DNA of 7,351 nt from Thermoplasmata archaeon (GTDB lineage Archaea; Thermoplasmatota; Thermoplasmata; Thermoplasmatales; Thermoplasmataceae): NCBI GenBank assembly GCA_021797225.1, contig JAKAAE010000080.1, positions 1-7,351 of the forward strand, in the 5' to 3' direction. How positions within the stretch are numbered: position 1 is the stretch's first letter; each line of letters begins with the position of its first letter. Below are positions 52 through 7,351 of this stretch, one piece after another. The notes under the pieces were generated by a model, which was given only the letters and a program-made list of their open reading frames with translations, was not told the DNA's origin and did not search any database. A program made the position numbers and the translations under genes.

Positions 52-124
52 GGGCTTGTGGTCCAGTGGTTATGACGCTTCCCTCACACGGAAGAAATCG
101 CCGGTTCAAATCCGGCCAGGCCCA
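52..124 (+). tRNA. tRNA-Val (anticodon CAC)
   Basis: A full cloverleaf can be drawn. The acceptor stem is 52-58 with 117-123 (seven pairs, one G-T), and the discriminator base is A124. The D stem is 61-63/74-76. The anticodon stem 78-82/90-94 has five Watson-Crick pairs and a seven-base loop 83-89, placing CAC at 85-87 (reads GUG, valine). The T stem is 100-104/112-116 with loop TTCAAAT. Conserved T8, A14, G18, G19, A21 and the G15-C48 Levitt pair are all present. CCA is not encoded (the gene is followed by TTCC), as is usual in archaea, and there is no intron. An A/T stretch at about 21-30 is at a suitable distance for a TATA box, but it is weak. I found no convincing second copy of the 3' half in the window, so use as an integration site is not shown. 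Confidence 0.95.
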
Positions 125-161
125 TTCCATTAATGGTAAGTAAACAGACTCATATAACACC

Positions 162-167
162 TTTTTT
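162..167 (+). terminator. T6 tract after tRNA-Val
   Basis: A run of six T lies 38 bases past the tRNA 3' end. Archaeal RNA polymerase commonly stops at T-tracts without needing a hairpin, so this is a fair candidate for the end of the tRNA transcript. A ten-base palindrome, CCATTAATGG, lies between them at 127-136. The assignment rests on composition and position alone. Confidence 0.35.
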
Positions 168-201
168 ATATACACTTAAAGTGTTTCGGATATATATAAA
201 T

Positions 202-615: not shown

Positions 616-724
616 TCAGCACAAAATTCACCATATAAAATTATACGGAATTAAAATAAAAATAATTATCCCTTTTAATCTGTTCTCATCTACAATACAG
701 AGTTTTTAATTAATATCTGAAGCT

Positions 725-778
725 ATAATCGTTATAATTTAAAACGATTATATAATCCTTGTTATCGGCTACGATTAT
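725..778. repeat. Double-hairpin core, copy 1
   Basis: P is ATAATCGTT (725-733), loop 1 ATAATTTAA, P' AACGATTAT (743-751, exact), second P ATAATCCTT (752-760, one change), loop 2 GTTATCGGC, second P' TACGATTAT (770-778). The outer arms also pair exactly as CTATAATCGT (723-732) with ACGATTATAG (771-780). Thus 725-733 can pair with either the near or the far arm, and the two foldings exclude each other. It is preceded by TTTTTAATTAATAT (703-716). The tail is AGGTTTTCC and then a long wobble hairpin at about 787-808. Confidence 0.85.
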
Positions 779-853
779 AGGTTTTCCTTATATATGTATA
801 TGTGTGAGTAAAAATATCCCTGCGGTTCTGTATATCCATTATCTATTTCATCC

Positions 854-907
854 ATGAACCTTTATTGGTAAAAGATTTATACAGACCTTTATATCTGCAA
901 GGTTCAT
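854..907. repeat. Double-hairpin core, copy 2
   Basis: P is ATGAACCTT (854-862), loop 1 TATTGGTAA, P' AAGATTTAT (872-880, pairs with one wobble and one mismatch), second P ACAGACCTT (881-889, 6 of 9), loop 2 TATATCTGC, second P' AAGGTTCAT (899-907). The outermost arms match perfectly over ten bases (853-862 with 899-908). This is the most diverged copy inside, yet it keeps the exact six-by-nine spacing. The tail starts GCCTGTTATA, like GCCTTTTTTA of copy 5. Confidence 0.75.
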
Positions 908-1001
908 GCCTGTTATAGCTATATGTATATATGATATTACTGACGGGAGAACATACAATATAAAATCTCTTAAAATATTATTTTGGTTTTAATTAACATT
1001 C

Positions 1002-1055
1002 ATAACAGTTATACTTTAAAACTGTCATATGACAGTTAAATGATGGGAGTGTTAT
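1002..1055. repeat. Double-hairpin core, copy 3
   Basis: P is ATAACAGTT (1002-1010), loop 1 ATACTTTAA, P' AACTGTCAT (1020-1028), second P ATGACAGTT (1029-1037), loop 2 AAATGATGG, second P' GAGTGTTAT (1047-1055). The inner P'-P junction is a perfect 18-bp palindrome, AACTGTCATATGACAGTT. The last arm has kept the T that matches the first P (ATAA) rather than the second (ATGA). The tail is ACC, a T5 run, then an eight-pair hairpin, CGTGTATT/AATATACG with loop TGC, and GATTTGATG (1084-1092). The upstream flank TTTTAATTAACATTC is 987-1001. Confidence 0.87.
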
Positions 1056-1110
1056 ACCGTTTTTACGTGTATTTGCAATATACGATTTGATGCATGAAGA
1101 TTTAATATTC

Positions 1111-1164
1111 ATAAGTCTTTTATTTTATAAGACTTATATAAGTCTTAAGTGCTGGGACACTTAT
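1111..1164. repeat. Double-hairpin core, copy 4
   Basis: P is ATAAGTCTT (1111-1119), loop 1 TTATTTTAT, P' AAGACTTAT (1129-1137, exact), second P ATAAGTCTT (1138-1146, exact), loop 2 AAGTGCTGG, second P' GACACTTAT (1156-1164). The inner junction is again a perfect 18-bp palindrome. An alternative short hairpin, TAAGTG/CACTTA (1146-1151/1158-1163), overlaps the second one. The tail is CATATTT-GGC-AAATATG (1167-1183) enclosed by ATACC/GGTAT (1163-1167/1188-1192), with GATTTGGTATG in place of GATTTGATG. Confidence 0.87.
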
Positions 1165-1261
1165 ACCATATTTGGCAAATATGATTTGGTATGCCTCAGA
1201 TAAATAATAATAGTGAATTTTTAAAGAAAATAAGATGGTATTGTTTTAATTTACATGCTCA

Positions 1262-1315
1262 TATTAAGTTTTATTTAATAACTTAATAAATTAAGTTTGT
1301 TGTCGTGAGTTAAGA
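1262..1315. repeat. Double-hairpin core, copy 5
   Basis: P is TATTAAGTT (1262-1270), loop 1 TTATTTAAT, P' AACTTAATA (1280-1288, exact), second P AATTAAGTT (1289-1297, one change), loop 2 TGTTGTCGT, second P' GAGTTAAGA (1307-1315, weaker). The upstream flank TTTTAATTTACATGCTC (1244-1260) resembles that of copy 3. The tail is GCC, a T6 run, ACGTATATTGCATATATATG and GATTTGATG (1344-1352), closely matching the copy 3 tail. Confidence 0.82.
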
Positions 1316-1362
1316 GCCTTTTTTACGTATATTGCATATATATGATTTGATGTATCTGTCAG

Positions 1363-2821: not shown

Positions 2822-3130
2822 ATAGTACGCACCAACGTTGAATACGCTTTCATTGTATACAAGAATGACCTTGAAACGGATATATCATATATCAGGGATG
2901 GCCACATGCTTTCATCCTACATGTTCCTTAATTTACTGACACTTTACCTGCATTTCCAGGTACTTAACATGATAGATGGAAAATACAGTGTAAGGGATGT
3001 TCTGCTCATCCTTTCCAGGATAAAAATATACAGTACAGGGAAAACTGAGATGGTAAGCGAAATACCGAAAAAGGCAAAGGAACTTATATCAAAGTTAGGG
3101 ATAGACCTGGACATATTACGTAAAAAATGA
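2822..3130 (+). pseudogene. 3' remnant of an IS4-type DDE transposase
   Basis: One frame is open from just after two stop codons (2816-2821) to TGA 3128-3130, 102 codons. It contains R-x3-E-x6-K (Arg at 2828, Glu at 2840, Lys at 2861), the later part of the Y-x2-R-x3-E-x6-K signature of IS4-superfamily transposases, whose Glu is the third catalytic acid. The position of the signature Tyr is the stop TAA at 2819-2821. After it come KNDLETD and a hydrophobic helix with FLNLLTLYLH. The C-terminus, EIPKKAKELISKLGIDL and onward, is of the kind seen in IS4/IS1634-like elements of Thermoplasmatales. The two upstream catalytic Asp and the left end are missing, so it cannot be active. An ATG at 2906 gives 74 residues but is probably not a real start. 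Exact subfamily is uncertain. Confidence 0.8.
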
Positions 3131-3180
3131 AGAGTTAAGGATAAACCTATTTTTTACTACCAAATTCCAGAGATGAGCAT

Positions 3181-3451: not shown

Positions 3452-3460
3452 TTTTATATT
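3452..3460 (+). promoter_or_regulatory. TATA box of the zinc-cluster gene
   Basis: TTTTATATT is centred 24 bases before the ATG at 3480, and no ribosome site lies between. This is the spacing expected when transcription begins at or next to the start codon, so the gene is probably leaderless. It also argues against the TTG at 3459 as the start, since that would lie in the promoter. Confidence 0.5.
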
Positions 3461-3479
3461 GTTAATTATTATAAAAACA

Positions 3480-4373
3480 ATGAAGCCAATAGATAAATTT
3501 AACAGGCCAATAAACAAAAAAACTTTTGAAATAATTGCTGGGATTGGTGACCGATTATTTAGAATAGGGTATGGTGAATCTTCGAAAAAACCAAATTTAT
3601 TTTATTTCAATGATCTGGAAATGACGTTTTTTGCAGATTTCAGAGGAACCGATGAGGTTCCTATATGGGAAGATCCAAGGCCGCTTCTATACTGGAAAAA
3701 GAATAAAGAAATAGATAGCAAGGAAATTATTACAAGAATTGTTGATCATTACGGCCTGCTTGGGTCTGTTCATGTTGAAACAAGAACTTCGTTTTATGAA
3801 AATGTAGAACCTGACAGCTATACAAACGAAAATAAATATAATTTTGAAGATTGTATTCATGATAAGTATAAAATTCCATATTTTTTAATGGATCTTGATT
3901 ACCAGTCACTTCAGCGTTACAGGCTCACCGGAAAAGTAGAATATTATAATGAATTGGAATATGATTCACAGGATGGCATATGCAAATTCTGTAGAGAAGA
4001 ATTCGACTCCGATGGATTTTTCTGCTCTGAAGAATGTAGGGTTAAATATATAAAAAGGCTTATAGCTATAATTATTTACAATGCACCGCGCTGTGATATC
4101 TGCCATTCTTTAATTTTAAACCACGGAGGAATTACGACCGATGATTATACTTTTTTAAATAAATCCACATTTGAGGAGTTTAATCAGTATATTAACTTAA
4201 AAGCAAAGGAAGGCTTTCATAAATACCATAAATCATATTTTCCGGTAACTGTTTTAAACGTATGCGATGATTGCTATACTGATATTAAGCATAATAAATA
4301 TCCAGAACTTAAACCTCCAAAAGGCGATAGAAAAAAATTCCTTCAGAATACTCGTGATAATGTTAAATTATAA
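3480..4373 (+). CDS. Two-zinc-cluster protein with HNH-like C-terminal domain, unknown function
   Basis: From the ATG at 3480 the product has 297 residues; a TTG at 3459 would add seven but overlaps the TATA box. The first 160 or so residues are mixed alpha/beta, acidic and aromatic, without a motif I know. Residues 168-186 hold C-x2-C-x10-C-x3-C within CKFCREE...FFCSEEC, a pattern like FCS/TRASH-type zinc fingers. A second pair of knuckles follows: CDICH at 205-209 and CDDC at 262-265. Just before the latter comes HKYHKSYFP and then VLNVCDDCYTDIKH. That layout (C-x2-C, His-rich turn, C-x2-C near the end) resembles treble-clef HNH domains, in which the turn supplies the catalytic His. Here the usual HH is YH and the last CH is CY, so nuclease activity is doubtful; the domain may only bind nucleic acid or protein. 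It converges on the restriction operon. Confidence 0.75.
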   Translation: MKPIDKFNRPINKKTFEIIAGIGDRLFRIGYGESSKKPNLFYFNDLEMTFFADFRGTDEVPIWEDPRPLLYWKKNKEIDSKEIITRIVDHYGLLGSVHVETRTSFYENVEPDSYTNENKYNFEDCIHDKYKIPYFLMDLDYQSLQRYRLTGKVEYYNELEYDSQDGICKFCREEFDSDGFFCSEECRVKYIKRLIAIIIYNAPRCDICHSLILNHGGITTDDYTFLNKSTFEEFNQYINLKAKEGFHKYHKSYFPVTVLNVCDDCYTDIKHNKYPELKPPKGDRKKFLQNTRDNVKL

Positions 4374-4688
4374 TTAGAATAAACTGAAATTAACATCGGC
4401 TCGAATTTTTAGCTTCGGAACTCAAGTGAAAATAACTAATATACGTACATTATTTAGTTTAAAAGCTCTTTTGGTAGAATTATACAACTAAATGACTCCG
4501 TCCGCGTTTTTACTATTAATGCCCATTACTAACCTCTCACTTACTTTTCATAGCATTTCTCTTTATACGGAAAATATGTTTTCCCATTGGAAGTTTTACT
4601 ATTTATCTAGCGTACTCTCATGGATCAAGTTTCTGGGTTTTCTGCTATGAGATCGTAAATTGTGAAATCATATTAATGTTTCAAAATT
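4374..4688. other. Convergent intergenic region
   Basis: This lies between two genes that point at each other, with no frame of useful size. Visible elements are a T5 tract at 4406-4410 (possible end of the + strand transcript), an AACTAA...TTTAGTT inverted repeat at about 4434-4461, and a perfect hairpin GGAAAA-TATG-TTTTCC at 4569-4584. The hairpin could mark the end of the - strand operon, about 105 bases past its last stop codon. CTCAT/ATGAG arms also occur at 4617-4651. No tRNA or repeat-array copy is present. Confidence 0.5.
4569..4584. terminator. Hairpin GGAAAA-TATG-TTTTCC, possible transcript end
   Basis: A six-base-pair perfect stem has a four-base loop. It lies downstream of both converging genes and could serve either strand, since each reading carries four T in its 3' arm. 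It is the only perfect inverted repeat in the gap. A role in termination is inferred from position. Confidence 0.3.
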
Positions 4689-5126
4689 TCAAAGCTGTAT
4701 GGGCAATCTCCTCTGCTTGCCACCTATATAGGCCATGGCCATCAAAAATTTCTCATCGTGGTGGCTGGAAAATATATGGGCAAGCTCATGAATCAGAATT
4801 TCCCTTATATCAACCCTTGATAATTTAATGGTATCTTCCCTTACCAGAATGGTTGAACCCTTTAGCATTGATATTATGGATTTATCCCGGAAATTTCTGA
4901 CAATCTCAAAGTTTATTTCACCCACTAGGAAGAATTTGCCGCTGCTGGACAGTTTAGAAAATTCTGACTTTATGATACGCCTCAACCTCATTCTCAAATA
5001 TTCTTTGAGTGCATGTTCATCAAAGGAAACGGGAATGTAAAGTATGTTTCCAGATTGTTTAGGCCTTTTCCTTTCGCTTTTTATGACCGTAAGTTTTTTG
5101 CCCATTATAGTTATTTCAGAATCCAA
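4689..5126 (-). CDS. Small zinc metallopeptidase, DUF45/YgjP-like (HELAH)
   Basis: The 145-residue product has HELAH at 113-117, then five residues, then His123 followed by D-E-K-F. This is the H-E-x-x-H-x5-H-x3-F arrangement of the YgjP-like DUF45 metallopeptidases, in which the three His hold zinc and Glu114 is the catalytic base. Genes of this family often lie beside hsdR in type I restriction loci; their function there is not established. The protein is shorter than typical members (often over 200 residues), mainly for lack of N-terminal sequence. The TTG start at 5126 follows GAGGGA by five bases and overlaps the hsdR end by eleven, which favours coupled translation. The ATG at 5105, ten bases past the hsdR stop, is the alternative and would remove seven residues. 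There is no signal peptide or membrane segment, so it acts in the cytoplasm. Confidence 0.82.
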   Translation of the reverse strand: MDSEITIMGKKLTVIKSERKRPKQSGNILYIPVSFDEHALKEYLRMRLRRIIKSEFSKLSSSGKFFLVGEINFEIVRNFRDKSIISMLKGSTILVREDTIKLSRVDIREILIHELAHIFSSHHDEKFLMAMAYIGGKQRRLPIQL

Positions 5127-7351
5127 ATGTATCCCTCAGGTTTTTGTATATAACGCCTACAGATGTCTTTTCCTTCTCTAAATCACCGGCACCGAACACT
5201 TTTATGTATGCATACCTTATCGATTTTTGGATTTTAGCCCTATCTACCTTCCGTACAATTTTTTCACCGTTCAGGAGTGACTTTATTCCGGGCCGAACAG
5301 CCAGGTTGTCACAGAATGGGTTCAGTATATCAGCATTAACATCGCCTAGGGAAATCTTTATCGCTTCCCTGAAGGCTGCTTTTGTTTCGCCTTCAGTTGA
5401 TTCTGATTCAGCAATTGAATCCATTGTGTCCTTTATTGACTTTATCTGCTGCAGTATGTCATCATTAACAGCTTTGGCATTTAACAGTTTCTGGTATGCG
5501 TTTACTATCCTCTCCAGAAGGCCTGGATATCCGTATCTTCTACTGGAAATTTCTGTGTGCCATGTATTCAATGCTCTCAATGCAGATCCATAATCCCTTG
5601 TTTTTCCAAGCTGGTTCAGGTAATCCCTGTCTATGGTGAAATTGCCACGGTTTTCCACATCAAGGAAGAAATTTTCGCTAATTATCTTCTTTACCCTTTC
5701 ATATGCCTCCTGCACCTTCTCGCCATCAACAGCACCAAGCTTCAGGTTATTGACGTATATGCCATATGCCCTTGCAAGTTGCCTGTATTTATCTATATGT
5801 AATGTGAGGTATGTTTTTGCCCTGGGTAGGTTGATCATCGCCGTTAATTTTCTAAAATTCTTCTCAAATCTATCTGATATTTCTGGATTAGAAAGAATCT
5901 TTATCAGTTTGTTAAGATTATCATGGCTATTGTCCGAGAAATCAAAATTCCCGAAGATGGCATAGGTTTCATCCAGCAACTTAATGAAATCTTTTTCAAT
6001 TTCCTCCCTTGATATGACTATGCCCTGAATGCCGGGTTTAGATGCTCCACCCTCATATTTATTTAATGTCTTGTTCAGTGTCCCCAGGAGGTACACATAA
6101 TCTATAACATAGCCATAATCCTTATCCCTAAATGGTCTGTCAGTACGCCCTATTGCCTGGAGCAGGCGTTCTTCAAAGAGTGGCTTGGCAAGATACATAA
6201 CCCATAGCTTCGGAGAATCAAAACCGGTAAGCAGCATATCGGTAACTATGAGTATTTTCGGATTCCCAGAGATATTGAAACTTTCGGTGAATTCCTTGCA
6301 TGCCTGCTTAGCATCTTTGCCGGTTCTCTTTTGCAGTTCTTCCCTGTATTCACTTATTAGACTGGATGATTCATTATGCCCGAATGTCATTACAATCTCT
6401 GATGTTTCCGGTGCAAGCAATTTATCCAGCTTTCTCTTGTACATTACACATGCTTCCCGGTCCACGGCAACAAGCATAGCTTTCAATCCGGAATTGGTGT
6501 TTTCCACTTCATTTTTAAAATGGTTTGCAACATCCCTTGCTATTGTATCAACATTGGCATCTGTTTTATATAATTCCTTGATAACCTTTATCTTTCTGTT
6601 CAGAAGATCCTTTTCGGATTCTGTAAGGCCTTCCGTTTCCTCATCATGTTCGAGGGCTTCATTAATGATGCGATCCTTAACCGCAGGAATAGCCGCATTG
6701 TACTCATAGGCGATTGGAACAGTAAAACCGTCATCCTGAGCATCCTTCATGGTATACCTGTCAAGGTAAATCTCACCGGGTGGGCAGAATTCCTCAAAGG
6801 TGTTTCTTACATTTCCACCGGATTTCTTCTTTATTGGAGTCCCCGTGAAACCGAAGACAAATGCATCGGGAAATGCACTTCTAAAAGTTCCTGCCATTAA
6901 TCCATACTGTGTCCTGTGGCTCTCATCAACCAGGCATATCACATTGTTATTCATATGAGACTCCTTAACTACAGATCTGAAATTTTCAGGGCTGAATTTC
7001 TGAATAGTTACAATGAATATTCCCGGCATAGCATTGCCATTGTTGTAGGCAATAAGGTCTCCAAGCTCTGTTGTATTTTTAATGTCCTTTGTAAGCTCCA
7101 GGCCCTGTATATCAGAGAAGCTTGATAGTGCCTGGTTGTCCAGGTCTTTTCTGTCCACTACTATTAGTATAGTTGCATCGGGCAAAGATTTTCTTAACTG
7201 GTATGCTGTATATGCCATTATTAGAGTCTTGCCGGAACCCTGCCAGTGCCATATCAAACCGGTTTTCTCTGGGTTCTTTAAAGTTTTGTCCATATTGTTA
7301 TAGATTCTATTAAGTATCTTCTCAGTGGCCCTGAACTGCATATACCTGGCT
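5116..7351 (-). CDS. hsdR: Type I restriction enzyme R subunit (HsdR), 5' end off the window
   Basis: This is the ATP-driven translocating and cleaving subunit of a type I restriction-modification complex, working with HsdM and HsdS. The frame is open to the window edge, so the Met at 7341 is internal (preceded by A-R-Y, as in the family's RYMQ region). Numbering from that Met: Walker A GSGKT 35-39, motif Ia VDRKDLDNQ 62-70, DEAD-box variant DESH 139-142, motif III GFTGTP 164-169, motif V TGFDSP 372-377, motif VI QAIGRTDR 395-402, then a long helical C-terminal domain that binds the methylase. All helicase motifs look intact. The N-terminal PD-(D/E)xK nuclease domain, normally some 250 residues, lies beyond 7351 and cannot be judged. 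No frameshift is visible across 744 codons. The stop overlaps the metallopeptidase start. hsdM and hsdS should lie to the right. Confidence 0.96.
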   Translation of the reverse strand, partial: ARYMQFRATEKILNRIYNNMDKTLKNPEKTGLIWHWQGSGKTLIMAYTAYQLRKSLPDATILIVVDRKDLDNQALSSFSDIQGLELTKDIKNTTELGDLIAYNNGNAMPGIFIVTIQKFSPENFRSVVKESHMNNNVICLVDESHRTQYGLMAGTFRSAFPDAFVFGFTGTPIKKKSGGNVRNTFEEFCPPGEIYLDRYTMKDAQDDGFTVPIAYEYNAAIPAVKDRIINEALEHDEETEGLTESEKDLLNRKIKVIKELYKTDANVDTIARDVANHFKNEVENTNSGLKAMLVAVDREACVMYKRKLDKLLAPETSEIVMTFGHNESSSLISEYREELQKRTGKDAKQACKEFTESFNISGNPKILIVTDMLLTGFDSPKLWVMYLAKPLFEERLLQAIGRTDRPFRDKDYGYVIDYVYLLGTLNKTLNKYEGGASKPGIQGIVISREEIEKDFIKLLDETYAIFGNFDFSDNSHDNLNKLIKILSNPEISDRFEKNFRKLTAMINLPRAKTYLTLHIDKYRQLARAYGIYVNNLKLGAVDGEKVQEAYERVKKIISENFFLDVENRGNFTIDRDYLNQLGKTRDYGSALRALNTWHTEISSRRYGYPGLLERIVNAYQKLLNAKAVNDDILQQIKSIKDTMDSIAESESTEGETKAAFREAIKISLGDVNADILNPFCDNLAVRPGIKSLLNGEKIVRKVDRAKIQKSIRYAYIKVFGAGDLEKEKTSVGVIYKNLRDTFGF

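Follow-up and report, generated by a model that had tools for sequence, protein, structure and literature searches.

What kind of element is a DNA array whose copies share one layout but differ in the letters that fill it? The question is raised by the window (the whole stretch of archaeal DNA analyzed here, 7,351 nucleotides long), for which a preliminary description had listed five 54-base cores, each made of six blocks (P1, L1, P1', P2, L2, P2') of nine bases. Judged by its sequence, this DNA belongs to an organism closely related to Ferroplasma acidarmanus Fer1, a member of an acid-loving archaeal genus. Its hsdR-type ORF (5116-7350, minus strand) encodes an HsdR with 95% identity to a Fer1 counterpart, and positions 4687-7351 share 94.7% identity with Fer1 DNA.

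An array of nine-base blocks in inserted DNA

The five cores were found at the starts given in that description, each dividing directly into six nine-base blocks with the words it quoted (Table 1). Each site was scored by summing the Watson-Crick matches over P1:P1', P1':P2, P2:P2', and P1:P2', for a maximum of 36. In a plus-strand scan, w1 to w5 were the top five sites of the window, the next one scoring 21. The proposed check against shuffled sequence favored the array as well: in region 124-1800, five sites scored at least 24, against a mean of 0.08 and never more than two in 1,000 dinucleotide shuffles, whose maximum score had a 95th percentile of 24 and a highest value of 28. For comparison, 86,813 start positions on one strand of DNA from Fer1 and its relatives gave two sites of at least 25 (best, 26), and an unrelated, nearly all-A/T site in a relative (L105, 1381) scored 26. 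Core starts in the window are 109-151 bp apart. Matching within a copy is imperfect and is weakest for P2:P2' (5-7 of 9). The 18-base self-complementary center ascribed to the element is complete in cores 3 and 4 only, cores 1, 2, and 5 having 8, 6, and 8 of 9 matches.

Table 1. Features of the array, its insertion site, and the related Fer1 copies (block scores out of 36)
Feature	Position	Strand	Description
tRNA-Val (anticodon CAC)	52-124	+	ARAGORN; Rfam tRNA 64.9 bits; insertion anchor
Start of inserted DNA	127-186	+	About 60 bp, also downstream of Fer1 tRNA-Val(GAC) and tRNA-Arg(CCG)
Core w1	725-778	+	P1 725-733, L1 734-742, P1' 743-751, P2 752-760, L2 761-769, P2' 770-778; score 32; orthologous to Fer1 fd by flanks (656-760, 88.6%)
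Core w2	854-907	+	Score 28; long-range P1:P2' perfect (9/9); Fer1 counterpart not found
Core w3	1002-1055	+	Score 30; flanks resemble Fer1 fc (956-1021, 74%)
Core w4	1111-1164	+	Score 32; w4 plus w5 match Fer1 fa-fb (1117-1348, 79%)
Core w5	1262-1315	+	Variant type, word TATTAAGTT, center AATA-AATT; score 28; matches Fer1 fb
Tail of unit 5	1317-1355	+	Semi-conserved, AT-rich; recurs at 1057-1095 after unit 3 (79% direct repeat D1)
Fer1 fa, fb, fc	L010 2194, 2342, 2489 (C1:1183693-1184040)		Downstream of tRNA-Cys(GCA)
Fer1 fd	from 1505504	-	Downstream of tRNA-Val(GAC)

Comparison with Fer1 placed this array in inserted DNA. Positions 1-126 are 100% identical to Fer1 C1:696059-696184, which holds tRNA-Val(CAC) and its upstream sequence, and the two are unrelated from there on; since the identity ends 2 bp past the tRNA-Val 3' end, the array lies in DNA that was inserted. 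As in a tRNA-anchored genomic island, the junction thus falls at a tRNA 3' end. The segment that follows is common to three tRNAs (the window tRNA-Val and, in Fer1, tRNA-Val(GAC) and tRNA-Arg(CCG)), and a 21-base piece of it, searched in 61 genomes with up to two mismatches, occurred at those two Fer1 sites only. At the tRNA-Arg place, 5.5 kb of Fer1 DNA held no array, as judged by BLAST with the window array and by block scores of at least 25. No second copy of the tRNA end was found within the window, and the far junction may be outside it; a pattern search allowing up to three mismatches gave none for Fer1 tRNA-Val(GAC) or tRNA-Arg. No integrase was seen among five of the 16 listed window ORFs (Pfam) or the eight Fer1 proteins downstream of the tRNA-Cys array. 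Two window ORFs, 1868-2524 and 3459-4373 (304 aa, with CxxC motifs), had seven homologues each at E ≤0.001 in a protein search; neither had a Pfam match above the curated cut-off, and neither offered a hint about the array.

Related copies at two further tRNA loci

Fer1 (G001) carries four further homologous copies, fa to fd, at two loci that both adjoin tRNA genes, which brings the set to nine copies over three loci with one to five copies each. These were accepted as copies because of their sequence similarity to the window, together with covariance model R1 for fa, fc, and fd (themselves members of that model), and not because of their block scores, which are 26 for fa, fb, and fd and 27 for fc (at 9/8). 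Flanks pair w1 with fd, w3 with fc, w4 with fa, and w5 with fb, leaving w2 unpaired. Further genomic copies with the same spacing were thus present: steps of exactly nine bases occur in three of the four, and fc, which has a 1-base deletion (fitting 9/8), is free of it and exact in a second genome, G093, where the same two loci are nearly identical to those of Fer1. Since the two genomes have hardly diverged, they are not independent evidence. When 169 combinations of loop lengths were scanned (3-15 by 3-15), 9/9 was the single best in seven of nine copies; in fd it tied with 9/15.

All three arrays lie downstream of their tRNA and on its strand; the distance from the tRNA end is 601 bp in the window, 232 bp at tRNA-Cys, and 369 bp at tRNA-Val(GAC). 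Comparison established the junction for the window alone, and for both Fer1 loci we infer insertion. The Fer1 tRNA-Cys end forms an imperfect direct repeat of about 50 bp (C1:1183440 and about 1195160; L010, L026). Next to fd lies an insertion-sequence-like element with TGTGAAGGTTGTGT-type ends, delimited by eye (L011, about 2890 to 1805), one end of which is repeated at more than 10 places in Fer1.

The Fer1 tRNA-Cys repeats bracket the array, cas6, cas7, cas5, cas3, cas4, cas1, and cas2 (Pfam), which we take to be a type I-B set, and an 8-repeat CRISPR; the last core of the array is about 570 bp upstream of cas6. A functional link between the array and CRISPR-Cas was considered and rejected. 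At this place G093 is without the stretch from about Fer1 1184389 to 1195881 and keeps the tRNA-Cys gene and the array, so that array and CRISPR cargo are not bound together, and the seven Fer1 spacers gave short matches only to the window (longest exact match, 12 bases; E 0.01). In G093 the flanking pieces overlap by 141 bp, a direct repeat in Fer1, and the Fer1 CRISPR repeat was absent from the 17-kb region examined there. The Fer1 cas4 frame is apparently cut by a DDE transposase ORF (L026 4278-5821), and the same transposase lies inverted at L026 14648-15706.

Wider searches with the array and with R1 were then compared. BLAST against 61 genomes gave matches beyond chance in Fer1 only, eight other genomes having one match each (E 0.003-0.01 over 23-38 bases). 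In the same genomes, R1 matched Fer1 and, weakly, G003 (E 0.017; L022, with no loop-2 bases) and G008 (E 0.065; L023, with three pairs broken and one base short). At E ≤0.005, it matched two of 400 class genomes, Fer1 and G093, and the same two of 41 family genomes. The candidates scored per genome numbered at most 79, 12, and 117 in the sets of 61, 400, and 41 genomes, which limited sensitivity, and with 150 candidates and an E limit of 10, R1 still missed the Fer1 copy fb. In the window, a weak match fell at 2610-2682 (23.2 bits, E 0.02), and w5, which was left out of the model, reached just 14.9 bits (E 1). In viral contigs, two patterns led to 48 loci, among which R1 gave a single weak match (26.1 bits, E 0.046) and nothing convincing, and neither the post-tRNA pattern nor the 218-aa ORF was matched there; plasmids gave no match. 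Relatives' tRNA-Val and tRNA-Cys flanks (14 loci) and two insertion-sequence loci reached 14.3 bits at best (E 1.4). The suggested covariance-model search of archaeal genomes therefore succeeded clearly in Fer1 and G093 and gave no convincing copy elsewhere, in searches insensitive enough to leave room for a wider occurrence.

Four-way change and two proposed folds

The nine-base words had been described as copy-specific, with partners that change inside each copy, and this was borne out in all four pairings. Over the nine copies, matches to the own partner exceeded those to other copies (of 9: P1:P1', 7.89 versus 4.64; P1':P2, 7.56 versus 4.50; P2:P2', 6.22 versus 3.96; P1:P2', 6.67 versus 3.68), and the observed sums were reached by 0, 3, 7, and 0 of 100,000 permutations, respectively. 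Restricting the analysis to the five window copies left the actual pairing first among 120 permutations in all four cases. Written in a single sense, the four words of one copy are near-identical. Moreover, between orthologs, six word positions were swapped to the same new letter in all four words (one in w1/fd, three in w3/fc, two in w4/fa, none in w5/fb), while 100,000 randomizations that kept the changes per word gave no such replacement in 96,954 cases, one in 3,015, and two in 31. This null treats words as independent and so rules out independent drift, not mutation that copies from arm to arm. The four-way statistics take in the four ortholog pairs, w2 having no ortholog, and the own-partner and mismatch statistics take in all nine copies.

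Selection for two folds accounts for the four-way change most directly; template switching inside palindromes can also produce it, and the data here fit both. The mutational alternative gains weight from Fer1, where the words of fa, fc, and fd are alike yet differ from their window orthologs: they are close to ATAG(T/A)C-TT, with G at position 4 in 11 of 12. Such likeness at two separate loci is not accounted for by selection on shape only. It also bears on a rather doubtful reading in which each copy would hold four half-sites for putative double-stranded binding by protein, kept alike by template switching within near-perfect palindromes. The outer letters of the words are largely constant (ATA....TT) around a variable middle, several bases were replaced in all four arms, as palindrome-templated mutation would do, and the closest arms (P1, P1', P2) agree best, all of which would suit protein sites, as would the Fer1 words. 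The window words differ among copies at positions 5-7, and 9/9 spacing is exact in eight of nine copies and, for the ninth, in G093, both of which speak against them. The earlier exclusion of protein operators is weakened by the Fer1 words and by a mutational process that could homogenize words. At P2' position 7, the letter in w3, w4, w5, and fb is the complement of the expected one, giving G-G or C-C against the other arms.

A single strand of each core would have two folds open to it: a pair of 9-bp hairpins, each with a 9-base loop, or one long hairpin with a 9-bp outer stem, a 9x9 internal loop, an inner stem of up to 7 bp, and an AUAU-type loop. Alignment A6, on which both folds were evaluated, comprised seven of nine copies (w1-w4, fd, and fa and fc as they stand in G093); w5 and fb were left out of R1 and of the A6 pair counts because MAFFT set them out of register in 35 of 35 flank combinations. 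The two-hairpin fold had 85.7% of cells paired with a covariation score of 0.476, and the long hairpin 86.6% and 0.568. None of 500 shuffles reached either measure for either fold, and slid controls paired at most 48.4% (two-hairpin) and 41.8% (long hairpin) of cells. Pairs changed on both sides were matched by 51 of 500 shuffles for the two-hairpin fold and 4 of 500 for the long one, the corresponding counts for further pair types being 11 and 1; related sequences can beat such shuffles even without structure. The two proposed folds are thus about equally supported. Predicted RNA energies (two-hairpin/long, in kcal/mol) were close in w1 (-6.2/-6.6), fc (-11.0/-10.8), and fa (-4.7/-4.1); they clearly favored the long form for w2 and w3 and two hairpins for w5 and fb. 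The previously proposed switch between two short hairpins and a long stem agrees with this similar covariation support and with the similar energies of several copies. As a bare core, only fc has the two-hairpin form as its minimum-energy RNA fold and only w3 the long form, the remaining seven folding otherwise and mostly retaining one stem.

Whether this pairing acts in RNA or in DNA was considered next. The array could consist of tandem small structured non-coding RNAs (units of about 110-150 nt) produced from tRNA-anchored insertions and switching folds or dimerizing through the center, a possibility that we regard as real but doubtful. Both folds covary, every array shares the orientation of the upstream tRNA, and w1, w2, and fc outperform most shuffled versions in unit folding (z = -2.47, -2.81, and -2.42), which would be expected of such RNAs; z-scores over the nine units, with RNA parameters, run from -2.81 to +0.56, and six lie above -2, which would not. 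Loop L1 is more alike between orthologs (30/36) than the words are (99/144), an identity inflated by its being nearly all A/T, and L2 is not conserved (2, 2, 4, and 7 of 9, the w3/fc value being affected by the deletion). RNA helices usually show G-U intermediates. Without the constant first base of P2', the mismatches comprise 8 G-U and 15 A-C (p = 0.21), with no significant G-U excess; that one column supplies the surplus in the full count of 18 G-U versus 15 A-C. The plus strand thus has no clear RNA signature, and the mismatch types favor neither RNA nor DNA.

RNAalifold picked the long hairpin on alignment A5, with an inner stem of 4 pairs, and no pair on the longer MAFFT alignment A2. 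In Rfam (E up to 5), the array had no match at a gathering score, in line with the statement that no named family is known to have this design; tRNA alone reached its own score, and a minus-strand mir-2076 match overlapping the array end (1323-1419) had 26.1 against a gathering score of 90. Given the mismatch types, the z-scores, and the lack of an Rfam family, action at the DNA level is at least as likely. The cores show the base-pair covariation of a structured non-coding RNA, and folded DNA would fit as well. Of the selection on pairing in RNA or single-stranded DNA that had been proposed, the covariation inside copies supports pairing, and the mismatches, z-scores, and A2 result do not support action as RNA.

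Likeness to known repeats and a candidate role

Structured palindromic repeats are a known kind of element, and the array shares traits with several of them. Integron attC sites, which the preliminary description had named as a candidate, also combine imperfect inverted repeats and copy-varying sequence with a kept folded shape (two stems and an unpaired spacer). However, attC sites have constant RYYYAAC/GTTRRRY ends, which the cores lack: P1 ends in GTT in six and CTT in three of nine cores, followed by ATA, TTA, or TAT (by eye), with no constant 7-base core. Furthermore, attC sites flank gene cassettes, whereas no ORF of at least 60 aa overlaps 700-1362; the inner and outer stems of the array use one word, and no integron integrase was seen in the five window ORFs compared with Pfam. 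REP, ERIC, and MITE-type repeats are likewise repeated, structured, non-coding elements in which compensatory changes are possible. The array differs in having few copies, in being tandem at two of three loci and beside tRNA genes, and in the number of its covarying arms, four instead of two. Short tandem units, dyad half-sites, and fixed spacing are traits it shares with plasmid iterons and operator arrays, but copies of those normally share one sequence, and here the window words differ in mid-word; the alike Fer1 words and the largely constant outer letters come nearer to such sameness. CRISPR arrays, which also consist of tandem palindromic units, have near-identical direct repeats and unique spacers, whereas the best core pair reported is 74% identical over 27 nt (D2), and the Fer1 CRISPR repeat looks unrelated to the cores (by eye).

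Four covarying arms at nine-base steps fit no family searched. Covariation of two arms is common; to our knowledge, no described element has four arms that change together while keeping a fixed spacing, as nine copies at three loci do here. Among the matches listed by literature searches, neither the titles nor the opening lines of the abstracts dealt with an element of this type. Passages of two papers, PMC12350378 and PMC12302457, concern genomic islands, and the word "hairpin" does not occur in PMC12302457.

We tentatively favor, at less than even confidence, the reading that the array is a shape-selected, cis-acting nucleic-acid element of DNA inserted at Ferroplasma tRNA 3' ends. In each 54-base copy, selection would act on shape and not on sequence. 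With one word in all four arms, both shapes are available whatever the word, and words would be free to drift if all four change together; differing words would stop neighboring copies from pairing or recombining with each other. We would place the action slightly more at folded or extruded DNA than at RNA, as a putative site recognized when the insertion replicates, transfers, or recombines. The layout, the copies, the four-way change, the tRNA-Val junction of the window, and the tRNA proximity of the two Fer1 loci are shown; selection for shape, the switch, action as DNA, and the role are inferred. Because the arrays lie beside tRNA genes, one of them in demonstrably inserted DNA, our first choice is a site for the processing of the element itself, followed closely by a structured RNA array and then by protein sites that mutate in concert, an order held with modest confidence.

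We counted for selection on shape the rigid spacing and scores, the own-partner excess, the four-way replacements, the fold covariation, the insertion, the shared orientation, and the lack of a significant G-U excess. Against it we counted that shuffles reach the weaker measures, that most bare cores fold otherwise, that z-scores are modest, that G-U versus A-C is not significant, that the Fer1 words are alike, that no integrase was found in the ORFs and proteins scanned, and that G093 has the array without the cas-CRISPR stretch there and is not independent of Fer1. A bolder form of shape selection, which we consider unlikely, is a bistable site in which one drifting word, used four times at exact nine-base steps, would keep two mutually exclusive folds always available as a shape-recognized switch for the replication, transfer, or expression of tRNA-anchored archaeal insertions, with copy-specific words preventing cross-pairing. 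Least probable is a decaying relic of repeated tRNA-end insertions with no present function; remnants do occur at the loci (the antisense gene end at 215-272, the insertion-sequence-like repeat by fd, and the remnant at 2835-3142), but four-way replacement with pairing kept and uniform spacing would not be expected under decay.

If selection maintains the four-way matching, the array would be a nucleic acid needing two alternative folds; if mutation does, it would offer a clear example from nature of palindromes whose arms are rewritten in concert. Both readings are testable in cultured Ferroplasma. Whether this is a new kind of system hinges on function, which lies beyond the reach of sequence alone. 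The array marks tRNA-anchored insertions of Ferroplasma, one place having a CRISPR-Cas locus in Fer1 and not in G093.

Several minor features accompany the array in the window. Positions 2835-3142, a mobile-element remnant, share 91% identity with Fer1 sequence in locus L007, and positions 2750-2830 resemble, by eye, the sequence downstream of Fer1 tRNA-Arg(CCG). An antisense remnant at 215-272 resembles a 340-aa gene of G006 (L127 1988-3010) at its C-terminal end. Finally, a small WLM/SprT-like metallopeptidase ORF (4689-5126, minus strand) overlaps the end of the hsdR-type gene.
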